A DNA stretch of 10,553 bases from Gammaproteobacteria bacterium. Lineage in GTDB: Bacteria > Pseudomonadota > Gammaproteobacteria > Steroidobacterales > JABDKV01. The position numbers and the translations under genes are program-made. Below are positions 2-9,763 of the stretch, in pieces (within the stretch, counting starts at the first letter, position 1; each line of letters opens with the position of its first letter). The stretch covers positions 1 through 10,553 of the forward strand of contig JAOTXR010000038.1 of the NCBI GenBank assembly GCA_029862285.1, given 5' to 3'. Under the pieces are notes generated by a model. It was not told the DNA's origin and searched no databases. It saw only the letters and a list, made by a program, of their open reading frames with translations.

Positions 2-484
2 TCATGTGGTGTTGTCTTGTGCCAGAATTTTCCGGATCTCGTCATTGTTTACCGGCCCTATCGCAAGAATCCGCTTGCCGATGAATTCACCCGCGTGTCT
101 CGCGGTCGCGTGGTCAAGGAAATGATCGATCGTCAGGACCTGCACAAAATTGCCCACCGCTTGCGCGATAAGGAAGTTGTGTTCTTCGCCGGCGACCAGA
201 TCGTTCGACGTGGCAAGCGCTGTGAGGAACTGCCGTTTCTTGACGTACAAACCTTGTTTCACAGTGGTGCGATCGACCTGTCACGCATGACTGGTGCAAG
301 AATTGTCCCGTATTTTCCGCAGCGCCTGCCGGGTGGTCGCTACAAGATAGAGATACTGCCGGCCTTTGAAGGAATCCCTTCGGGTGACCGGCGCGCCGAC
401 ATGAGTCGGATTAACTCTTTGTTGGAAGAATATCTCTTGCGGGATCCATCGCAATATCTGTGGACCCGGGACCGGCTTGCCTGA
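2..484 (+). CDS. Lipid A biosynthesis acyltransferase (LpxL/HtrB family), 3' part only
   Basis: The reading frame is open at the left edge, so this is the C-terminal ~160 residues of a protein that normally has about 290-310. Family features visible in order are a YRPYRKNP segment near the fragment's start, a GDQ motif about 60 residues in (FFAGDQ), a region that usually lines the acyl-donor pocket (TGARIVPYFPQRLPGG), and the C-terminal QYLWTRDRL, which matches the family's QWMW/QYLW-x-RRF ending. The catalytic HX4D motif lies upstream, outside the window. Members transfer a lauroyl or myristoyl chain from acyl-ACP to the lipid A precursor on the inner face of the inner membrane. Neighbouring LPS-type genes support this role. 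The in-frame TTG at position 17 is not a credible start because the frame and the homology continue upstream. Which acyl chain is used cannot be told. The stop codon abuts the stop of the convergent kinase gene. Confidence 0.85.
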   Translation, partial: SCGVVLCQNFPDLVIVYRPYRKNPLADEFTRVSRGRVVKEMIDRQDLHKIAHRLRDKEVVFFAGDQIVRRGKRCEELPFLDVQTLFHSGAIDLSRMTGARIVPYFPQRLPGGRYKIEILPAFEGIPSGDRRADMSRINSLLEEYLLRDPSQYLWTRDRLA

Positions 485-1192
485 TCAACGTGAGGCGATT
501 TTTTCGCGTAGTGCGTTCAATGGTCCCCTGAACCTGCGCCTCACCCAGCGTGCCGCGCGCTCCAGACGCATCGGTCGGTAGTACTGCTCGTCAGCCGGAT
601 CGAATGGCAATGAACGGTTGCGATACTTGTTTTTAAACCAGCCGTGATAATCGAGTTGTTTGGCAGCCCGGAAAAAAAGATGATTTAGCGGCCTGAAACC
701 GTCTTTGCGCACGATCGCGGTGCCAAAATCTACCAGGAACGGTTCCCGCCCGACACTGAGAATAAGGTTGTCACGGCGTTTCAGGTCGGCATGCGCCACG
801 CCATGACTGTGTAGTTGCTCGATCAATGCCAATAACCTGGCATGCACCTCGTCATCTTGCGTAAATACCAGGTTTCTGAATGCCGTGCCCTCAATGTATT
901 CCAGCAACAGGTGTCGGCCGTCGATGAGGCCAAAGCACTGCGGGATCCCGGCGATACCAGCCAGTTCCTGATAGACCAGGTACTCATTTTTGAGCATCCA
1001 CCGGCGCAGCCAACGCAGGACTTTTTCATCGGCTACTGATTTTATGACAACGCGCTGTCCATCCAGCGTTACCACATGCACCGATCCCTGGTAACCGGAC
1101 TGCGGTTGATCTTCGCCAATCACGCTCGACCCGGCAATAAGCTGATCGATATCGGCAGAGCCAAGAGCGTCAATTTTCTGCTGTAACGACAT
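485..1192 (-). CDS. Small LPS-kinase-like protein (Kdo/heptose kinase, RIO-like fold)
   Basis: This 235-residue protein carries a compact eukaryotic-like kinase core. It has VVIKS with the ATP-anchoring lysine K51, a glutamate in the following helix (E70 or E76), the catalytic loop HADLKRRDN (H134, D136, K138, N142) and a DFG metal-binding motif (D155-G157). The length and the LEYIEGTAFRNL hinge fit the lipopolysaccharide kinase group (WaaP/KdkA/InaA-like), which phosphorylates Kdo or heptose of the inner core on the cytoplasmic side. The basic C-terminus (ARWVRRRFRGP) could touch the membrane. It lies 7 bp downstream of the methyltransferase-like gene on the same strand, so the two are probably co-transcribed. 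No strong Shine-Dalgarno precedes its ATG. Its stop codon directly abuts that of the convergent acyltransferase gene. A RIO-type protein kinase is the alternative, but the LPS neighbourhood favours a sugar kinase. The acceptor is not shown by the sequence. Confidence 0.75.
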   Translation of the reverse strand: MSLQQKIDALGSADIDQLIAGSSVIGEDQPQSGYQGSVHVVTLDGQRVVIKSVADEKVLRWLRRWMLKNEYLVYQELAGIAGIPQCFGLIDGRHLLLEYIEGTAFRNLVFTQDDEVHARLLALIEQLHSHGVAHADLKRRDNLILSVGREPFLVDFGTAIVRKDGFRPLNHLFFRAAKQLDYHGWFKNKYRNRSLPFDPADEQYYRPMRLERAARWVRRRFRGPLNALREKIASR

Positions 1193-1199
1193 GCCAGGT

Positions 1200-1784
1200 T
1201 TATTTTACGAATATAACGATAAGGCACCCAAGCAGGACAGCTGCAATAATAGGTTCCGCATTCCTGCTCATTGAAGTTTTAAGAGACCATGGACCCTTGC
1301 TGTCGGCATCGGTTCGAATTCGGCGTGGCACAAGTGCCGGAGTTTGCTGCGACCAGGCGCGCCATTCGTCACCGAATAGACCCTCGAGTTTGTAATCTTC
1401 ATACTCAATCGCAGTTGGATAAAAAACGTAAAGAAAAATAGCCAGTACCACATAGGCCCATAGTTGCGAACCGGCAATGGCCAGACCCAGGAGTAGAAGG
1501 ATGTTGCCGGTATACAGCGGATGGCGCACGTATGCATACGGCCCGTTGGTAGCCAACACGCTGTTCTTCATAATGTGCCCGGATGACCAGAGGCGGATTG
1601 CGATACCGATCACAACCAGTGGTACGCCCAAATAGGCGAGTGGTAAGACTGGTTTGCCAGCTATGGCGACAGCAAATGCGAAAACAAAGCCTAGAATTTG
1701 CCGGGCAGATTCTTTGTAGCGAATCTCTCGCAGGACATGGCGCAGACCCGTGAGTTCGGGCAGGTGTTCTGTGCGATGGGACAT
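1200..1784 (-). CDS. Isoprenylcysteine carboxyl methyltransferase (ICMT/PEMT)-like membrane protein
   Basis: This is a small integral membrane protein with hydrophobic stretches, numbered from the ATG start, at about residues 29-43, 47-65, 94-121 and a final one at 177-193. Between them lies the signature GPYAYVRHPLYTGN (about 81-94), followed by EYED and GLFGDEWRAW (about 135-144). These are the cofactor- and substrate-binding hallmarks of the ICMT/phospholipid methyltransferase superfamily, which uses S-adenosylmethionine. Bacterial members rarely have a known substrate; a lipid or a lipid-linked molecule is likely here. The ATG at 1784 is preferred; an in-frame GTG at 1802 would add six residues, and neither has a clear ribosome-binding site. 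It is first in a two-gene operon with the LPS-kinase-like gene (7 bp gap). The extra C-terminal hydrophobic segment after a charged linker is not always present in this family. Confidence 0.75.
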   Translation of the reverse strand: MSHRTEHLPELTGLRHVLREIRYKESARQILGFVFAFAVAIAGKPVLPLAYLGVPLVVIGIAIRLWSSGHIMKNSVLATNGPYAYVRHPLYTGNILLLLGLAIAGSQLWAYVVLAIFLYVFYPTAIEYEDYKLEGLFGDEWRAWSQQTPALVPRRIRTDADSKGPWSLKTSMSRNAEPIIAAVLLGCLIVIFVK

Positions 1785-1802
1785 ACCGCAAGAATAGCGC
1801 AC

Positions 1803-1926
1803 GAGCTACGGTTTTTACATGTGCAGGGGCGGCAGTACGGCAGCGGCGGCCTGGTGGGTCATGAGACCGCTGTGGAGTTCTGTGTACGCAGGACGTAGTC
1901 TAGGTATCTACCCGCAGGATTTGTGA
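1803..1926. promoter_or_regulatory. Divergent intergenic region between the ICMT-like and heptosyltransferase genes
   Basis: These 124 bases separate two genes that point away from each other, so they should hold promoters for both. The only strong signal is an AGGA Shine-Dalgarno at 1916-1919, seven bases before the heptosyltransferase ATG. The middle (about 1824-1852) is GC-rich with GGC repeats. No convincing -35/-10 pair was found on either strand. Confidence 0.4.
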
Positions 1927-2988
1927 ATGGTCGACACAGCGATTCCAAAAAATGTCTGCATCATTCGTCTCTCGGCTATCGGTGATTGCTGCCATGTATT
2001 ACCTGTGCTGCGCACCCTTCAAAGCGCCTGGCCGAATGCCAGGTTTACCTGGATCGTCGGCAAGGTCGAAGCGTCGCTGGTTGGCGATATTCCCGGTATC
2101 GATTTTGTAGTGCTCGACAAGCAGCTCGGTCTGCGAGCTTACCTGGCTGTGCGACGCGCACTGCATGGCAGGAAATTTGACCTGTTATTGCACATGCATG
2201 CCTCCATGCGAGCCAATCTGGTCAGTCTGATGGTGTCGGCGCCCTATCGTCTGGGGTTCGACAAACCGCGTGCTCGCGATCGCCAGTGGTTGTTCACCAA
2301 TCAGCAGATAAACTCGCAACCGCGGCAACATGTTCTGGATGGATTGTTTGGATTTGCCGAACATTTTGGCGTGACGGAACGGCACATGCGTTGGGACATA
2401 CCCCTCGAAGATAGTGATCGTGCTGCGGCGACACAGGAAATCGAACCAGACCGGCCAATGTTGGTCATCAGTCCCTGCAGTAGTCAGCGGTTACGCAACT
2501 TTCGCAACTGGAGCGCGCAACATTATGCAGCGGTGGCCGCCCATGCAACGAAGAAGTACGGAATGCAGGTGGTGCTCACCGGTGGCAGCACGCCGCTGGA
2601 ACGGGAGTACGGAGAGCATATTGCTGCTCTCCAAGGCGAAAAAACGATAAATCTGATTGGCAAGACCACGTTAAAGCAATTACTTGCCGTTTTGGAACGA
2701 GCAACTGTTGTGTTGTGTCCCGATTCAGGTCCGGCACACATGGCAACTGCCGTGGGTACACCCGTTATCGGGTTATACGCAACTTCCAATCCGGGTCGTA
2801 CGGGTCCCTATCTGAGCCAGCGTTGGGTCGTAAATAAGTATCCGGAGGCGGTCGGGTTGGAGTTAGGCAAGTCCGCCGAAGAGTTGCGGTGGGGCGCACG
2901 CGTGCGTAATCCACGGGCAATGAACCTGATCGAGGTTGCCGATGTCACCGCCAAGCTGGACCAACTGATGGCAGCGGCGATTCCGTAG
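1927..2988 (+). CDS. Glycosyltransferase family 9 (ADP-heptose:LPS heptosyltransferase-like)
   Basis: This is a complete 353-residue GT9 enzyme, the usual length for WaaC/WaaF-type proteins. The N-terminal Rossmann half starts with CIIRLSAIGDCCHVLPVLR; D20 aligns with the catalytic aspartate of E. coli WaaC (D13). The C-terminal nucleotide-sugar half contains VVLCPDSGPAHMA (D266, S267, G268, H271), then GTPVIGLYATSNPGRTGP (277-294), the ADP-heptose-binding signature. The family adds heptose to Kdo or to another heptose of the LPS inner core on the cytoplasmic face of the inner membrane. The ATG at 1927 has an AGGA ribosome-binding site seven bases upstream. The gene stands alone on its strand, with a divergent operon before and a small terminator after it. 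It cannot be assigned to heptosyltransferase I, II or III from sequence alone. The nearby acyltransferase and LPS-kinase-like genes agree with a lipid A/core role. Confidence 0.88.
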   Translation: MVDTAIPKNVCIIRLSAIGDCCHVLPVLRTLQSAWPNARFTWIVGKVEASLVGDIPGIDFVVLDKQLGLRAYLAVRRALHGRKFDLLLHMHASMRANLVSLMVSAPYRLGFDKPRARDRQWLFTNQQINSQPRQHVLDGLFGFAEHFGVTERHMRWDIPLEDSDRAAATQEIEPDRPMLVISPCSSQRLRNFRNWSAQHYAAVAAHATKKYGMQVVLTGGSTPLEREYGEHIAALQGEKTINLIGKTTLKQLLAVLERATVVLCPDSGPAHMATAVGTPVIGLYATSNPGRTGPYLSQRWVVNKYPEAVGLELGKSAEELRWGARVRNPRAMNLIEVADVTAKLDQLMAAAIP

Positions 2989-3136: not shown

Positions 3137-4210
3137 ATGGGTACAAGAGTATTTGCTGCGGCGGCGGTAGTCGCTTTTGGGGTGTTCAGTTTTCTCTGTC
3201 TGCGCGCTCACGCGCCTGCAATCGCTGCGGACCTCGAAACCAAGTCGTCTGTTGCGTTACAGGGCGCGGGGTTGAATGCAATTTCAGCTACAGCGAACGG
3301 TCGTGAACTGACTCTGGCCGGGATGGTGGCGGACGAGGACATCAAAACTCGTGCCGCACAGATGGTAGGCGGCATTGCGGGGGTCAGGAATGTTTACAAC
3401 GACCTTGAGGTGGAGAGCGGTTCTGTAGTCGCGCCAGAACCCATTGCACAGGCGCTTGCTACGCCAGCCGTCATGACGCCGTACCGGTTCCGTATCGCCA
3501 AGCGCGATGATGTCGTGACACTTAGCGGTGTCATGCCAGATGCGGAAGCGCGGCGGCGATTACTGGAACATGCTGAGGAGGTATTTGGCTCAACGGTAAT
3601 TCGTGACCGGATTGATCTGGCGCCCGGTGCTCCGGCCGAATGGTCCGAAGCACTCATGTCAGTACAGACAGAGATTGCACAATACGTTGAAGGCGATGCG
3701 CGTTTGACCGGCACAACTATCGAGGTGCGCGGCACTTTGCCCGCGAGCCGCGAGTCTGCGACGAGCCGACTTGCCGCCGCGATTCCCGCCCGGTACGACA
3801 GTGACATTGTGTTGTCGGCACCAGCGGGTGCGCTCACTTCGGATTGTCAGACGCAGCTCGACAGCTTGCTGGCAAATAATCGAATCAACTATTCTGTAGG
3901 CAGCGCTACTATCAGCAGCTCCAGTTTTGCTCTGCTCGATCGTCTTGGCGAGGCAGTGAGTGTTTGCGCAACCGCACGAATAGAAATTGCTGGCCACACC
4001 GATGCGCAAGGATCAGCGACGGTGAATCAGACACTGAGTAAAAGGCGTGCCGAAGCGGTCGTTAATTACTTGCTCGCGATGGGTATTTCCAGCGAGCAAT
4101 TAGTTGCACGCGGTTACGGCGAGACACGACCCGTCGGCGCTAACGAAACAGCGGAAGGGCGGGCACGCAACCGCCGCATCGAATTTAATGTACTGGAGAC
4201 AGACAAATGA
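3137..4210 (+). CDS. Exported BON-domain/OmpA-like peptidoglycan-binding protein
   Basis: This is a 357-residue envelope protein. Residues 5-21 form a hydrophobic signal or anchor segment, with possible signal peptidase sites near AHA (24-26) or AIA (28-30); C21 lacks a good lipobox. A clear BON domain spans about 38-92 (ELTLAGMVADED, GVRNVYNDLEV). Two weaker BON-like repeats follow at about 113-162 and 168-228. The C-terminal OmpA domain (about 237-355) carries GHTDAQGS (286-293), N297 and LSKRRA (300-305). D289 and R304 correspond to the pair that holds diaminopimelate of peptidoglycan in OmpA proteins, so it should bind the cell wall from the periplasm. The architecture resembles ArfA-type BON+OmpA proteins. 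The ATG at 3137 follows a G-rich ribosome-binding site and directly gives the signal peptide. An upstream in-frame GTG at 3008 would add 43 unlikely residues. The stop overlaps the next start in ATGA, so the two are translationally coupled. Confidence 0.85.
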   Translation: MGTRVFAAAAVVAFGVFSFLCLRAHAPAIAADLETKSSVALQGAGLNAISATANGRELTLAGMVADEDIKTRAAQMVGGIAGVRNVYNDLEVESGSVVAPEPIAQALATPAVMTPYRFRIAKRDDVVTLSGVMPDAEARRRLLEHAEEVFGSTVIRDRIDLAPGAPAEWSEALMSVQTEIAQYVEGDARLTGTTIEVRGTLPASRESATSRLAAAIPARYDSDIVLSAPAGALTSDCQTQLDSLLANNRINYSVGSATISSSSFALLDRLGEAVSVCATARIEIAGHTDAQGSATVNQTLSKRRAEAVVNYLLAMGISSEQLVARGYGETRPVGANETAEGRARNRRIEFNVLETDK

Positions 4211-5841
4211 CTTACTTATTAGCACAAATGTTCGTCTGCCTGCTGGGTGCCGGAATTATTGGGGCGATAGCCGCGTGGTTTGTGCGTCACGGCATGGCCA
4301 GGAAGCAGGAATCGGAAATAGAAAATCGCTGGTCTGGCCGGTTGCGTACGGCGGAAAGCCATCATGAACGCGAAACACAATCCCTAAAGGCGGAGGTGTC
4401 CGGGCTTCAGGAAAGATTGCCGTCGCTCGAAACAGAAGTGATGCAGCGAGATGATCGCATTCATGCATACGAAACGCAGGTGCCGCTGTTGGAGACAAAG
4501 ATCAGCGATCGCGACAATACGATCAGCAGTCTGCGTACTGATTTTGAAACCATCAAGAAACAGGTGCCGGGTCTGGAGGGTAACGTTTCAGAACGCGACA
4601 ACGTCATTGTCGGGCTGAAGCGGGATCTGGAGAGCCAGAAGAAGCAGGTTGCCAGGCTGGAAAAGGAAATAGGCGGCTACAAGGAAAAGATCTCGCCTAT
4701 GGAAAAAGAGATCGGAGATTACAAAAAACGCGTGGTCCCGCTCGAAAAAGATGCCGCTGGGTTACGCCAGCAAACGGCGCACTTGGAGGATGAGCTAAAG
4801 GACTATCGTATGAGGCTGCCGAAAATGGAGACGGAACTGTCTGACTACAAGGGTAAGTTTGCGGCGGCAGAAAAGGACCTGACTGAGCGCAAGAGTCGGT
4901 TCGCAGCTGTCGAAGAAGAGCTCGGTGGTTACCAGAAAAAAGTACCGTCACTGGAATCGGAGCTTGAGTCTCACAAGCGCAGGGTTCCGCAACTGGAAAG
5001 AACGCTAAGAGAGCTGGAACCTGAGCTTAAGACCCGGGATTTGAAAATTGCCAGACTCGAGAAAGAGGTTGCCGGGTCGCAGAGCAAGGCCGCATCCTGG
5101 GAGGAGCAAGTCGGTAACCAGGTTTCGGAGATCACAAAGTTGAGGGAAAATGCCGAACTCTCGAAAAACAGGAGTTCGGATACAGAAAAACGGCTGCATG
5201 AACGGGATCGCAGAATCAAGGCGCTGGATAGCGAGCTTCGTGGCTGGCGTACCAGGCACGATGCCATTAAGAACCGCTTTGAGGAAAAGGAACACCGCAT
5301 TACCCGGCTGACCGGTCAGCTGGCGGAGCAAAAGAAGGAGCTGACGAGTGCGCAGCGCGCGCTGGCGAAGGCCAATCATGTAGTCGATGTGGCAAAAATC
5401 AAGAGGAAGCCGGCGGCTCGCAAGACGGCGACCAGGACACGCCCGGCGACCACAAGCAAGAGAACTTCTGCGCGGCGGAAACCGGCCAAACGCAAGACTA
5501 CAACGGCAAAGACGCGGTCACGTTCTGCAACAGCGTCGAGTCGTTCAAAGACCACCCAGACGAGACGCCGCAAAGTAGCAACCGCAGCAAAGCGCCGCAA
5601 AGCCAGCGGGCCTTCCTGGCGGTTGTCCAAACCACAGGGCAAGAAGGACGATCTGCAGAGAATCTACGGTGTCGGGCCAGTCATGGAGAAGACCCTGAAC
5701 AAGCTTGGCATCTATCATTTTCGGCAAATTGCCGGGTTTTCAAAGCAGGATATCCAATGGGTCGCGGATCACATCGATACGTTTCCCGATCGCATCATGC
5801 GCGACAAGTGGGTACAGCAATCGAAAAAGCTGCAGCGCTAA
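4207..5841 (+). CDS. Membrane-anchored coiled-coil protein with H1-like basic tail and C-terminal helix-hairpin-helix domain
   Basis: This 544-residue protein has four parts. Residues 4-26 are one transmembrane helix followed by RHGMARK, so the positive-inside rule puts the rest in the cytoplasm. Residues 35-390 are a charged coiled coil. Residues 397-467 are rich in Lys, Arg, Thr, Ala and Ser (RKPAARKTATR, ARRKPAKRKT, AAKRRKAS) and resemble histone H1 tails. Residues 478-543 are a helix-hairpin-helix unit with YGVGPVMEKTLNKLGIYHF (487-505) and RIMRDKWVQQSKKL, like the 'flap endonuclease-like' COG3743 domain also found fused to other proteins. The basic tail and HhH both point to nucleic-acid binding; no nuclease residues are evident. 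The start overlaps the OmpA-like gene's stop (ATGA), so the products probably act together. A role as a membrane-DNA tether is inference; structural protein or scaffold are alternatives. Confidence 0.8.
   Translation: MTYLLAQMFVCLLGAGIIGAIAAWFVRHGMARKQESEIENRWSGRLRTAESHHERETQSLKAEVSGLQERLPSLETEVMQRDDRIHAYETQVPLLETKISDRDNTISSLRTDFETIKKQVPGLEGNVSERDNVIVGLKRDLESQKKQVARLEKEIGGYKEKISPMEKEIGDYKKRVVPLEKDAAGLRQQTAHLEDELKDYRMRLPKMETELSDYKGKFAAAEKDLTERKSRFAAVEEELGGYQKKVPSLESELESHKRRVPQLERTLRELEPELKTRDLKIARLEKEVAGSQSKAASWEEQVGNQVSEITKLRENAELSKNRSSDTEKRLHERDRRIKALDSELRGWRTRHDAIKNRFEEKEHRITRLTGQLAEQKKELTSAQRALAKANHVVDVAKIKRKPAARKTATRTRPATTSKRTSARRKPAKRKTTTAKTRSRSATASSRSKTTQTRRRKVATAAKRRKASGPSWRLSKPQGKKDDLQRIYGVGPVMEKTLNKLGIYHFRQIAGFSKQDIQWVADHIDTFPDRIMRDKWVQQSKKLQR
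4489..5034 (+). repeat. Thirteen 14-residue (42-base) coiled-coil repeats
   Basis: Within the coiled-coil protein, residues 95-276 divide without a gap into thirteen 14-residue units. Their first residues are L95, L109, L123, L137, L151, M165, L179, L193, M207, A221, V235, L249 and L263. The typical unit is L-E-x-E-L-x-x-Y-K-x-x-V-P-x, two heptads. A proline at or next to position 13 recurs in about half of the units. The bases have diverged, so the repeat is seen at protein level rather than as near-identical DNA. Confidence 0.8.
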
Positions 5842-5890: not shown

Positions 5891-6913
5891 CTATTCGAAC
5901 AACTCAGGAATGGCAGCGCGCAGGTGTTGCTGCATCGGTCCTCCGGCATCGGGATCCAGGTTGTCAACTGCGGGAAGACCGGTCAGCCTGCGCACAAGAT
6001 CTATCGCGGCGGTTGTTGCGGCGGCAGGTCCGGCGACCAGGTCTGGTTTTAGTCCGAATGCCTTCATAACGCCAACCACGGAATAGGGGTCAAAAGCACA
6101 GAGCACTGTGAACTTCACCCTCGGCAACAGCAGTTGTACTGCTGTTGAGCCGTTGTACGGCTCCAATGGCGAGGCTCCAGCTTCTGCTACCAGCACGTCA
6201 ACATCGAGTGCCGCGATCCGCGCCATCATCTGCTGCATCAATGGGCGGAATTCCTCAGGGCTGACAACCGTAGACGGCAAGCCGACGTCAACAAAATCCA
6301 GGATATTGTCAGCGCCGGCGTCCTGAAAAGACAGGATATCGTGGTAACGGGCCGCGCCCGTGAACTTCGCTCCCGCAACTTTAAGGCCAAAGCGCTTTAG
6401 CTCGTGAATGATCAGCCGCCCGGTAGATGTCTTGCCAGCCGACATGGACGTACCCACCAGCAGTATCACTGGAACCTGGAGTTCCGCCGGCTCCACTTGC
6501 TCGACGAAATCTTTCATGTTGAGTTGTCGTCCGTTACGCATTACATGGCCGACATAGTCGACTGTCATGAAAGGCGGCAACAGTCTGGAAGCAGACGTGG
6601 TCATCCCCAGTAGCCCCGCACCGGTTAATGAGTTCATCACATTGTCATTTCCGACTTCACGCCAGCTGCCAGCACCTTCAAGTGTCGCGGCGCGCGTGCC
6701 GAGTGCGCTGATAGCATAGTCACCCGGCATGACCTCCACACTTCGTCCCGATATAGTCTCGAAGCGATAGAGTTTATTGGGCGCGCCGGTCACGCGTACT
6801 GCGGTGTAATCGCCCTCACTCCATTGCTCGCGTGGATAAGGCTCTACTGTGAACGGCACCTCATTGAGGTCGGCAATACGGGTCAGCGACGTCATTATGT
6901 AGCGAGGTTTCAT
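5891..6913 (-). CDS. P-loop NTPase, DUF1611/dethiobiotin-synthetase-like C-terminal domain
   Basis: This 340-residue protein has an N-terminal domain of about 145 residues that I do not recognise. A nucleotide-binding domain follows, opening with the Walker A-type loop GTSMSAGKTSTGR (154-166, K161, T162). A possible Walker B strand is VDVLVAEAG (238-246). The spacing of an N-terminal domain before GTxxxxGKxxT resembles DUF1611 proteins such as DgcN, which acylate D-glutamate, and the BioD/MobB fold. The family assignment is tentative. The ATG at 6913 overlaps the stop of the upstream peptidase gene (ATGA), which decides this start over the internal ATG at codon 7. It is the last gene of the three-gene operon and ends at the bidirectional terminator. 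It may activate or modify the small molecule processed by its partners, which is inference. No signal peptide is seen, so it is cytoplasmic. Confidence 0.6.
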   Translation of the reverse strand: MKPRYIMTSLTRIADLNEVPFTVEPYPREQWSEGDYTAVRVTGAPNKLYRFETISGRSVEVMPGDYAISALGTRAATLEGAGSWREVGNDNVMNSLTGAGLLGMTTSASRLLPPFMTVDYVGHVMRNGRQLNMKDFVEQVEPAELQVPVILLVGTSMSAGKTSTGRLIIHELKRFGLKVAGAKFTGAARYHDILSFQDAGADNILDFVDVGLPSTVVSPEEFRPLMQQMMARIAALDVDVLVAEAGASPLEPYNGSTAVQLLLPRVKFTVLCAFDPYSVVGVMKAFGLKPDLVAGPAAATTAAIDLVRRLTGLPAVDNLDPDAGGPMQQHLRAAIPELFE

Positions 6914-8073
6914 TTTCCGATCCCGTGACTGTCTAGGCCAGCCTGGATCAAAAGAGCAAGCAAAGCAGTGCGCTCGATGGTCTTGTCGATGTCGAGGAAT
7001 TCATGACGGGCGTGCGCGCCATCGCCAACCGGACCCAGGCCATCCAGCGTGGCCGTGTACAGACTGGTCGTGTTGCCATCGGAACCACCGCCTGCCATGC
7101 CCTCGTCGATATCCAGGCCAATACTGGCCCCGAGTCGTTGTGCCATTTGCAGTAACGCATGATTGCGTGGTGTGTGTTCCAGAGCGGGTCGTCCAATTCC
7201 ACCTTCGGTGTGTATCCGAACGCCCGGAGTCTTTGGCGTCAGGTTGCGAATAGCATCATCGATATGCTTGGCATCTTCTGCTGTAGCGACCCGGACATCG
7301 ATAACAGCTTTGCTGTTCGGTGCAATCACGTTCGGGCGGACTCCGCCGTCAATAGTGCCAACATTCACAGAGATACCGCGTTCTATATCGTTCAGCGCAA
7401 ACAACTGCTGGATCTGAAAAGATAGTTCCAAGATCGCACTGGCGCCACCCGTTGGATCGAGCCCTGCATGCGCGGCCTTGCCAAAAACGGTAACTGTGTA
7501 GCGACCGATACCCTTGCGACGTGTCTTGAGCTTGCCCTCCGGGCCTAATGACGGTTCCATTATGTAGGCACGTTGCGCGTGCAACGCCAGCATTTGTATG
7601 TATCGGCTCGAAGTGCGACTGCCGATCTCCTCATCGGCATTGATGAAGACTACCGGTGTCAGCGGTGGTTCGAGTCCGAGGGTTTGCAGGGCCTCCAGCG
7701 CAAACACGATTTGTGCGAGTCCACCCTTCATATCGAAAACACCGGGTCCGCGGATGATATTTTCATCTACTTCAAAAGGCATGTCGTGTAGTGTGCCCAG
7801 CGGCCAGACTGTATCGTAGTGTCCTAGCAATAACTGTATGGGCTGTCGTCTTATGCGCCGCCGCGGTCGGGCGTAGAGATGCAGCGATCCGGCACGTATC
7901 GTGTGATAGTCAATATCCTCGAAATGAGTGGCCAGTGCGCCGCTCGCCAGCCGCAGGGAATCTGCTGAAGAAGAGGGCGATTCGAGTACAGTCAGGTCGT
8001 GCAGAAAGTCAATAATCCGTTGCCGCTGGTCGCGTAGTACCGATAGCAGGGCCGGACCATTTTCAGCCGTCAT
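6910..8073 (-). CDS. M20 family metallopeptidase, carboxypeptidase G2-like
   Basis: This is a 387-residue M20 enzyme with every expected catalytic element. LLGHYDTVWPLGTL carries H85 and D87. GPGVFDMKGG carries the zinc-bridging D114. DEEIGS carries the catalytic base E148 and ligand E149. MEPSLG carries E173. The C-terminal GAHARHEFL carries H357. The dimerisation domain (about 185-295) contains GKAAHAGLDP and DGGVRPNVIAP. These phrases match carboxypeptidase G2/glutamate carboxypeptidase members, which remove C-terminal glutamate or cleave N-acyl amino acids with two zinc ions. There is no signal peptide, so it should act in the cytoplasm, unlike secreted CPG2. It starts inside the stop of the flavin-reductase-like gene and ends inside the start of the P-loop gene (ATGA on both sides), with no strong ribosome-binding site of its own. 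The true substrate is unknown. Confidence 0.85.
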   Translation of the reverse strand: MTAENGPALLSVLRDQRQRIIDFLHDLTVLESPSSSADSLRLASGALATHFEDIDYHTIRAGSLHLYARPRRRIRRQPIQLLLGHYDTVWPLGTLHDMPFEVDENIIRGPGVFDMKGGLAQIVFALEALQTLGLEPPLTPVVFINADEEIGSRTSSRYIQMLALHAQRAYIMEPSLGPEGKLKTRRKGIGRYTVTVFGKAAHAGLDPTGGASAILELSFQIQQLFALNDIERGISVNVGTIDGGVRPNVIAPNSKAVIDVRVATAEDAKHIDDAIRNLTPKTPGVRIHTEGGIGRPALEHTPRNHALLQMAQRLGASIGLDIDEGMAGGGSDGNTTSLYTATLDGLGPVGDGAHARHEFLDIDKTIERTALLALLIQAGLDSHGIGK

Positions 8074-8678
8074 TTTTTCATGCCCGAGGGGAACGGGAAT
8101 GAGAAAGAGGAATCGATGACGGCGAAACGTCCTGGATGGATATACGCAAATAATGGCGCATCTCTTAGTTGTGCATCACTGCCCATGTCTGAGTGAATTA
8201 GCGCATCCTGCGCGGCATGTGCGGCAACTATGCGGCCGGCTATCAGACCGTTTTCACCGAAATCCGGAATAATCCGATCGAGGCTGCATTCCAGCCACAG
8301 ATAGGAATTGGCGAGAAAAGGCACGCCGCTGTCGGGCGATTCAAAAGTGTCCAATGCCGAAAGGATTGGTTTGGAATCGTCGTCGCAACGCGGTGAGGCG
8401 GTGAGGCTCGTCAGCAGCAGCTGATCGGGGCGTGGATAGCTGACAGAAAATCGCTCCGTCTGTTCGATGTTGCGCCAGGTATGGTGACGTGGCGTGCAGA
8501 CGAAACCGAAGTAATTCTTCCACCCCAGTGGCGTCACCATATGTTTCGGTGCCAGGTCGGGCACACCATTGCTGTCGCAAGTGCCTATCAGAACCAGCGG
8601 CGCAATAGTAAAGAACCGTTCCCAGATCGGGTTATCGATATCCAGGCGGACAGCAGCGTCAGGCATGCTTGCAATCAT
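8070..8678 (-). CDS. Flavin reductase-like FMN-binding split-barrel protein
   Basis: This 202-residue protein is the usual length for the flavin reductase-like domain (RutF/DIM6-NTAB group). Visible family features are VLIGTCDSNGVPDLAPKHMV (29-48), covering the first strands and the N-G-x-x-D/N-x-A-P turn, then YFGFVCTPRHHTWRNIEQTERFSVSY (56-81), where FMN phosphate contacts and the T-x-x-N-I segment fall. WLECSLDRII (128-137) is the later barrel strand. Such proteins bind FMN and either reduce it with NAD(P)H for a partner enzyme or use it directly. The start is fixed by a strong GGAGGAG ribosome-binding site (8685-8691), six bases from the ATG. It is the first gene of the ATGA-coupled operon with the M20 peptidase and the P-loop protein. 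A pyridoxamine-oxidase-like split barrel is an alternative. Its redox partner is not seen here. Confidence 0.75.
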   Translation of the reverse strand: MIASMPDAAVRLDIDNPIWERFFTIAPLVLIGTCDSNGVPDLAPKHMVTPLGWKNYFGFVCTPRHHTWRNIEQTERFSVSYPRPDQLLLTSLTASPRCDDDSKPILSALDTFESPDSGVPFLANSYLWLECSLDRIIPDFGENGLIAGRIVAAHAAQDALIHSDMGSDAQLRDAPLFAYIHPGRFAVIDSSFSFPFPSGMKK

Positions 8679-8770
8679 GAGGCGCTCCTCCGATGGTTTG
8701 CCCCATTGACACGCCCAGGCCCCACGCCTGTAAATCCGTACTTGTGCTTAGCCCGTTCCCGGGCCTGGTC
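8679..8770. promoter_or_regulatory. Gap between the diguanylate cyclase and the coupled operon, with small dyads and weak promoter-like boxes
   Basis: Two GC hairpins lie here: CAGGC/GCCTG (8716-8730) and GCCCG/CGGGC (8751-8764). Neither has a T-tract, so a terminator for the diguanylate cyclase gene is not evident and read-through into the operon is possible. On the - strand TTTACA (8729-8734) and TGTCAA (8706-8711) sit 17 bases apart and could serve the operon weakly. Confidence 0.35.
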
Positions 8771-9697
8771 CTAGGCCGCGTTTTTGACGGTATTGCGACC
8801 GGCGGATTTGGCTGCATAGAGGGCCTTGTCGGCCCGCTCGATCAGCGCCGCCTGAGAATCATCGGCAGTGATTGTTGCGACCCCGATGCTGATCGAAACA
8901 CAACCGCCAGGCTGCGTTTCCCGGCCGGGGAATTCGAAGTCGGCGACACTGGCGCGTAGTTTCTCAGCCAGGGCGCTGGCAGCCTGTTCTGTGGTCTCCG
9001 GGACGACGATGACAAATTCTTCGCCGCCCCAGCGGCCGACAGCATCGCTCTGGCGGGTATTCTTCACGAGTACCCGGGCGATGCACTGCAGCGCTTCATC
9101 GCCGCTCGGGTGCCCATGCCGATCGTTGTATTCCTTAAAGTAATCGACGTCGATGAACATTATTGACAGTTCACGTCGGTAACGTATGGCGCGCTCGAAT
9201 TCTGCGGAGAGTAATTCCAGCAGGTGACGGCGATTGTAGATACCTGTCAGGCCATCGCGGATAGCCAGATGGTGCAATTCCCTGTTCGACTCATTGAGTG
9301 CATCGATTAGTTGTTCGCGTTCGCGCACCGAATTAGTCGTTGCCAGGGCGCGTTTGATCGTCGCACGCACTTTCTCGTAGTTTTCGAATGGCTTGACCAG
9401 GTAATCACAGGCACCAGCACGAATGGCAGCGATCGCTGTATCCATTGAGGCATGTCCGGTCATTACGATCGTGGGTACGTCCGGGTTGCGGTCGCGGATT
9501 GCCGCCGTCAGGCTCAGGCCGTCCATTCCGTCCATGCGGATATCGGTCATGACCAGATCGAAACCAGTGGACTCGAAGGAGGCGAGCGCCGCTTTAGCGC
9601 TCGCAACTGCCTCGACTTGAAAGCCCATTTCCACCAGAACCCGTGAAACAATCGTCCGAATATCTTCGTCGTCGTCGACTACGAGCACGCGATACAT
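8771..9697 (-). CDS. Response regulator diguanylate cyclase (REC-GGDEF, PleD/WspR-like architecture)
   Basis: This 308-residue protein has an N-terminal receiver domain (1-120) with D9/D10, phospho-acceptor D52 in TDIRMDG, T80 and K102 in KPF. A short helix linker (about 121-145) leads to a GGDEF domain (146-305). The active-site motif is GGEEF (224-228), a functional variant. RQSD (215-218) lies five residues before it, the RxxD product-inhibition site. Phosphorylation by an unseen histidine kinase should promote dimerisation and synthesis of cyclic-di-GMP from two GTP. The start at 9697 gives MYRVLVVDDD directly at the first strand of REC, with an AGGGG ribosome-binding site nine bases upstream. 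An upstream in-frame TTG at 9763 would add 22 atypical residues. No kinase gene is adjacent. It is divergent from a secreted-protein gene. Confidence 0.92.
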   Translation of the reverse strand: MYRVLVVDDDEDIRTIVSRVLVEMGFQVEAVASAKAALASFESTGFDLVMTDIRMDGMDGLSLTAAIRDRNPDVPTIVMTGHASMDTAIAAIRAGACDYLVKPFENYEKVRATIKRALATTNSVREREQLIDALNESNRELHHLAIRDGLTGIYNRRHLLELLSAEFERAIRYRRELSIMFIDVDYFKEYNDRHGHPSGDEALQCIARVLVKNTRQSDAVGRWGGEEFVIVVPETTEQAASALAEKLRASVADFEFPGRETQPGGCVSISIGVATITADDSQAALIERADKALYAAKSAGRNTVKNAA

Positions 9698-9735
9698 GCC
9701 GGCACCCCTGGAACGTCTAAAGTAACGATATCGCT

Positions 9736-9763
9736 TAAATATAGGCTCGGATTCACCTGGCAA
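9736..9763 (-). promoter_or_regulatory. Candidate sigma-70 promoter of the diguanylate cyclase gene
   Basis: On the - strand TTGCCA (9758-9763) and TATTTA (9736-9741) are separated by 16 bases. Transcription would begin near 9729, about 30 bases before the chosen ATG. The boxes match the consensus moderately. Confidence 0.4.

Follow-up and report, generated by a model that had tools for sequence, protein, structure and literature searches.

What would a cell-wall-binding protein and a coiled-coil protein do together when their genes overlap? The question is raised by positions 3137 to 5841 of contig JAOTXR010000038.1 (assembly GCA_029862285.1; Gammaproteobacteria, Steroidobacterales), a 10.6-kb contig from a 2.5-Mb draft genome (462 contigs, 70.7% completeness), the whole 10,553 nucleotides of which are referred to below as the window. 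The reading frames were recovered as the first-pass annotation had given them, with a BON-OmpA protein of 357 amino acids (here O) starting at the ATG at 3137 and a single-pass membrane protein of 544 amino acids (here H) starting at 4207, the two genes sharing an ATGA. That annotation regarded the pair as a possible cell-wall-to-nucleoid tether. The explanation favored here, which we hold at roughly even chances, is an anchor between wall and inner membrane whose cytoplasmic coil and docking tail can be exchanged. Such a two-gene module, which recurs within the window's class and in further classes of its phylum, would couple the cell wall via the inner membrane to cytoplasmic structures, and it offers a handle on a shared helix-hairpin-helix (HhH) tail that has by now turned up in both photosynthetic and respiratory complexes, on some of their proteins. 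No description or name of the O-H pairing was found in the open-licence literature, as judged by titles and the openings of abstracts.

Using an HhH profile built from pair members, 59 genomes (the window's own and its relatives) and 370 genomes of the class were searched and the loci were taken with their flanks; the class-wide search was limited to 4 scored candidates per genome, and one locus (L106) was chosen by its O match instead of an H match. An HhH open reading frame was found in 97 of the 103 loci, the window included (L083, L137, L147, L154, L176, and L190 were dropped). Transmembrane (TM) segments were called at a mean hydropathy threshold of 1.8, with L008 (1.78) and L103 (1.76) falling just below it. 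By this measure 62 of the 97 HhH-tailed proteins had an N-terminal TM segment and 35 were called without one, three of the latter (L076, L078, and L152) ending at a contig edge. A same-strand BON/OmpA neighbor accompanied 42 of the 62 TM-HhH proteins as opposed to 1 of the 35 without TM segment (Fisher p 6e-11); the single exception, L094, probably has a miscalled start. The neighbor lay within 150 nt in 41 of the 42 cases and at 272 nt in the remaining one (L085). Gaps between -4 and +30 nt were recorded in 34 of the 42 listed pairs, and O stood upstream in 38 of the 42 and downstream in 4. The conserved adjacency that the first-pass annotation had set as a check on its idea was thus borne out. 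The pairing is far beyond chance (a binomial test used a chance rate of 1% of our own choosing) and, because it recurs in many related bacteria, the pair looks like a real unit.

The same arrangement was met from other starting points. Profile matches to the N-terminal TM-coil part of H within the class (20 loci taken, with at least G394:C3, G121:C37, and G314:C2 omitted) had a same-strand BON/OmpA neighbor in 16 cases and lacked one in L237, L244, L250, and L255; owing to the omissions this tally is incomplete. An O profile was also run against 397 genomes from across the phylum, and 20 of the loci obtained were taken (14 outside the class, 6 inside). An H-type neighbor was present at 12 of the 14 outside loci; nine of these neighbors were HhH-tailed and three (L266, L268, and L269) were TM partners of only 99-112 amino acids with weak matches to the TM profile (E 2e-4 to 1e-5). 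In L268 and L269 long BON-OmpA genes are followed by TM-coil genes of 108-112 amino acids, the one in L268 having a weak PspM match below cut-off.

Joint inheritance was assessed with trees for 33 pairs, ten of the 43 being left out. Distances in the O and H trees correlated with r 0.64 when the TM region plus tail of H was used and with r 0.47 for the tail alone, values reached by 0 of 2000 label shuffles. Genome G002, a relative, carries three paralogous pairs (L067, L081, and L072). By both measures the true pairing stood alone at the top of the 384 assignments compared within genomes.

In Pfam searches O matched OmpA (8.9e-22) and BON (1.3e-13), the latter being the single BON family above cut-off, and the three BON-like folds listed in Table 1 are our reading of the model. 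This AlphaFold model (mean predicted local distance difference test, pLDDT, 89.4; predicted template modeling score, pTM, 0.43) contains one helix over residues 2-43, the BON-like folds, and the OmpA domain, whose relative placement is uncertain given the pTM. Residues D289 and R304, which we take to be the Asp and Arg through which OmpA-like domains bind the peptide of peptidoglycan, are intact in O, as the first-pass annotation had noted, and their equivalents were kept in 36 of 36 OmpA-bearing partners. Cysteines 237 and 277 were both present in 31 of these 36 and both absent in the same 5. The description of O as a periplasmic BON/OmpA protein held for its domains and needed amending for its location: O looks anchored in the inner membrane rather than freely periplasmic, since the modeled helix runs continuously from residue 2 to 43 and many aligned relatives have, in our reading of the alignment, no obvious cleavage motif. 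A plain soluble periplasmic OmpA protein is accordingly disfavored by the long helix. The domain type and the cysteines kept or lost together place the remainder of O, by inference, on the periplasmic side. In L074, L075, and L077 the O-type partner has shrunken to a TM-BON protein, and a gene of 209 amino acids overlaps or adjoins the end of H, with a relative also in L069.

H was found to be built as described earlier, namely as a single-pass membrane coiled-coil protein with an H1-like basic stretch and an HhH domain. It has one TM segment at residues 8-26 (mean hydropathy 2.35), and its coil repeats every 14 residues (autocorrelation maxima at 28, 14, 56, and 42). The positive-inside rule gave a C-in topology in 42 of the 43 pairs, which agrees with the cytoplasmic placement of the coil assumed at the outset. 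The distance from TM segment to HhH domain ranged from 59 to 927 amino acids among the 43 HhH pairs.

The tail itself turned out to be exchangeable and familiar. The 65-residue HhH domain of the window (residues 480-544; AlphaFold mean pLDDT 91.1) belongs to a family that we take to be COG3743. It matched the tail part of the NCBIfam models for NuoE, L21, S2, and the phasin PhaH, and by profile the tail of two solved chains, so on sequence grounds it is a known shared add-on that also occurs on respiratory, ribosomal, and photosynthetic proteins. With the HhH model as query, Foldseek found no PDB match at E<=0.001. The conserved W-x-x-Q near the end of the tail is present in the window, where the residue next to it, usually Ala, is Ser. 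The Pfam family DUF4332 takes the place of the HhH tail in 5 tested pairs (L236, L240, L246, L249, and L253) and also sits on the unpaired L244. Neither tail was detected with Pfam in L241 or in the extra locus L202, and one of the 16 paired N-terminal-match loci (L245) has a clear HhH tail. Two HhH tails stand in tandem in L143 and L149, one of them on a protein that we read as L21-like.

From these parts the following arrangement may be proposed. O would be held by its N-terminal helix, its BON-like domains would stack in the periplasm, and its OmpA domain would grip peptidoglycan; H would lie beside it in N-out/C-in orientation and carry a coil ending in a tail that docks a partner in the cytoplasm. 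Together O and the membrane segment of H would be the constant core, with coil length and tail type as exchangeable cargo. As the general partner of the tail, a protein or large complex seems more likely than DNA, and in the sub-lineage of the window the H1-like linker may add a nucleic-acid contact.

Several observations weigh against this anchor. No O neighbor was found for 20 of the 62 TM-HhH proteins, and O-type loci lacked an H neighbor at E<1e-3 in 2 of 14 cases outside the class and in all 6 inside it, a limit that small or divergent partners could escape. Wall binding is not universal, because a clear OmpA domain is missing or degenerate in 7 of the 43 partners (three TM-BON proteins of 104-113 amino acids, three with BON and no OmpA match, and one with a sub-threshold OmpA match). 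The orientation of O drew no help from the positive-inside rule, which gave 26 of 43 C-in, 7 C-out, and 10 ties, the window among the ties. The tree and swap results show units of inheritance and not contact, because linkage alone could give them; the physical O-H complex is a step that we infer, as are the orientation of O and the partner of the tail.

The DNA side of the earlier proposal fared differently from the wall side. The canonical DNA-binding hairpin motif is GhGxxxA, and 39 of the 40 pairs scored, among them the window, have Glu at its Ala position. The net charge of the HhH domain across the 43 pairs ranged from -8 to +5 with a median of -1 (window +3), a figure for net charge only and not for the surface, and shows no consistent basic character. 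The linker of the window has 83 residues of which 31 are Lys or Arg (composition R17 T15 A14 K14 S10 P5, with one KPAA), and a basic linker, defined as a net charge of at least +10 over 90 residues, was found in 2 of the 43 pairs, the window and its ortholog L067; in the other 41 the charge ranged from -27 to +8. Outside pairs such linkers occurred in 1 of 22 TM-HhH proteins and, among HhH proteins lacking a TM segment, in 8 of 32. The linkers of H in L090 and L097 are strongly acidic (-20 and -27). DNA binding as a general property, as the first-pass annotation had suggested for the HhH domain, is therefore unsupported: proteins of respiration, the ribosome, and photosynthesis bear this tail as well, and elsewhere DUF4332 or no detectable tail is present. 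A nucleoid tether as the general function was rejected on the rarity of the basic linker, the DUF4332 tails, and the pairs without a detectable tail. Of the proposed tether the wall side stood, with D289 and R304 kept, and the nucleoid side was unsupported in general and is a possibility for the sub-lineage of the window. There, to judge by its composition, nucleic-acid contact by H via the H1-like linker is plausible, and DNA tethering is possible by analogy with AlgP. That the window pair itself is such a tether, with linker and HhH domain holding DNA and O holding the wall, we consider unlikely. A narrower version is more doubtful still, in which one of several wall-anchored coil pairs in the window's genus gained the H1-like linker and became a peptidoglycan-inner membrane-nucleoid tether while its paralogues, present in the same cell and with the same membrane core, hold other cytoplasmic partners.

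Three further explanations compete with the anchor. H could serve O chiefly as a membrane chaperone or regulator, with coil and tail secondary, as Rv0900 would serve OmpATb; the partners of only 99-112 amino acids in L266, L268, and L269 fit this, as do the status of Rv0899 as the closest solved relative of O and the statement, in the available part of PMC3618439, that Rv0900 regulates OmpATb expression post-transcriptionally. The 43 HhH pairs nevertheless retain a spacer and tail that would be needless for a mere chaperone, and we regard this explanation as rather doubtful. The pair might also be a stress or ion-homeostasis device akin to OmpATb in acid adaptation, which is tied to low-pH permeability and ammonia secretion in the portion available of PMC6151718. 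At nine order-level loci the pair is accompanied by homologous genes, of which the one in L068 is a Na+/H+ exchanger with TrkA_N by Pfam; however, this neighborhood looks like one inherited locus and other pair types, including that of the window, differ. We consider such a device very unlikely. The neighbors of the pair types were an exchanger, an HSP90-like gene, or two-component genes, and we discarded the neighborhood as a clue to function, since different neighbors for different pair types say little beyond independence. That variety also bears on the last explanation, co-transcription only with no physical link. Adjacency and overlap by themselves prove no contact, but the pair recurs in varied neighborhoods, as jointly inherited paralogues, and with its order reversed in four loci, and we hold mere co-transcription to be highly improbable.

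Among known systems the wall side of the O-H pair is close to ArfA/OmpATb (Rv0899), which shares with O an N-terminal membrane anchor, a BON region, and an OmpA C-domain. Rv0899 was the best solved match of O (profile E 2e-44 over two stretches) and ranked first in Foldseek. The NCBIfam model for ArfA (NF051434) scored O at 53.4 bits, below its cut-off of 81, and had no match over cut-off in the window's own genome. Rv0900, a membrane protein of 50 amino acids, is said in the accessible part of PMC3618439 to control OmpATb; it was likened to H by description only, and the partner here differs in having a long coil in the cytoplasm that ends in a docking tail. In RC-LH1 protein-O, membrane helices are joined to the same HhH tail, and the function of the domains is called obscure in the available text (PMC12079452). 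Unlike in such proteins with a COG3743-type tail, the tail here stands at the end of a membrane coiled-coil protein whose gene neighbors one for a wall-binding protein. As far as the available text of PMC12918733 goes, HubP/FimV likewise combines a wall-related periplasmic part, a membrane region, and a long cytoplasmic part, but in one polypeptide with LysM and TPR, whereas here two proteins carry BON, OmpA, and HhH. An identity with HubP/FimV was rejected, no LysM being among the 4 Pfam families listed for O (E up to 0.1). In the last 150 residues of H, Pfam gave no match to the C-terminal TPR of FimV, with 25 of 63 matches listed for full-length H. The AlgP/PhaF granule-nucleoid tether resembles H in having a helical part followed by a long basic stretch of low complexity (PMC9239181, in part). 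AlgP and PhaF are granule proteins with tandem KPAA repeats, which were not found in the window linker, whereas H is a membrane protein whose linker is rich in R, T, A, K, and S and leads into the HhH domain. The FtsZl1 operons, which likewise contain OmpA-like genes and one for a coiled-coil protein, were set aside as their gene sets differ; the text available of PMC2875224 contains neither "BON" nor "helix-hairpin-helix."

Table 1. Features of the O-H gene pair, in positions of the window.
Feature	Position	Strand	Basis
O gene, TM-anchored BON-OmpA protein, 357 amino acids	3137..4210	+	Pfam, AlphaFold, profile match to Rv0899 in the PDB
O N-terminal membrane segment, residues 5-24, probably uncleaved	3149..3208	+	Hydropathy, continuous model helix 2-43, alignment of relatives
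O BON-like fold 1, residues 49-92	3281..3412	+	Pfam and AlphaFold model
O BON-like fold 2, residues 117-161	3485..3619	+	BON_like match below cut-off; AlphaFold model
O BON-like fold 3, residues 169-227	3641..3817	+	Model secondary structure; YscD-like BON match below cut-off
O OmpA-like peptidoglycan-binding domain, residues 234-353	3836..4195	+	Pfam, Foldseek; D289 at 4001-4003, R304 at 4046-4048
O Cys237 to Cys277, probable disulfide	3845..3967	+	Cysteines present or absent together among partners
ATGA stop/start overlap of O and H	4207..4210	+	4 nt, sequence
H gene, single-pass membrane protein, 544 amino acids	4207..5841	+	Hydropathy, open reading frame
H membrane segment, residues 8-26, predicted N-out/C-in	4228..4284	+	Positive-inside rule
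H coiled coil with 14-residue repeat, residues 44-395	4336..5391	+	Pfam search and autocorrelation
H H1-like basic linker, residues 396-478	5392..5640	+	31 K/R in 83 residues
H HhH tail, residues 480-544	5644..5838	+	Profile matches and AlphaFold

The reversed gene order, with H first and then O, was seen in L090, L094, L097, and L106, and the homologous nearby gene is HSP90 by Pfam in L097. A third HhH-tailed protein of the window's genome (L008, 3918-5240) has a hydrophobic N-terminus and no BON/OmpA neighbor. Upstream of the pair (window 2-2988) lie envelope-lipid genes, namely the end of a lipid A acyltransferase gene and genes for a kinase-like protein, a PEMT-type methyltransferase (NCBIfam LmtA 3e-15, below cut-off), and a heptosyltransferase. 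Downstream, a minus-strand run at 5891-9763 encodes a protein with a weak DUF1611 match, an M20 peptidase, a flavin-reductase-like protein, and a response regulator-GGDEF protein.
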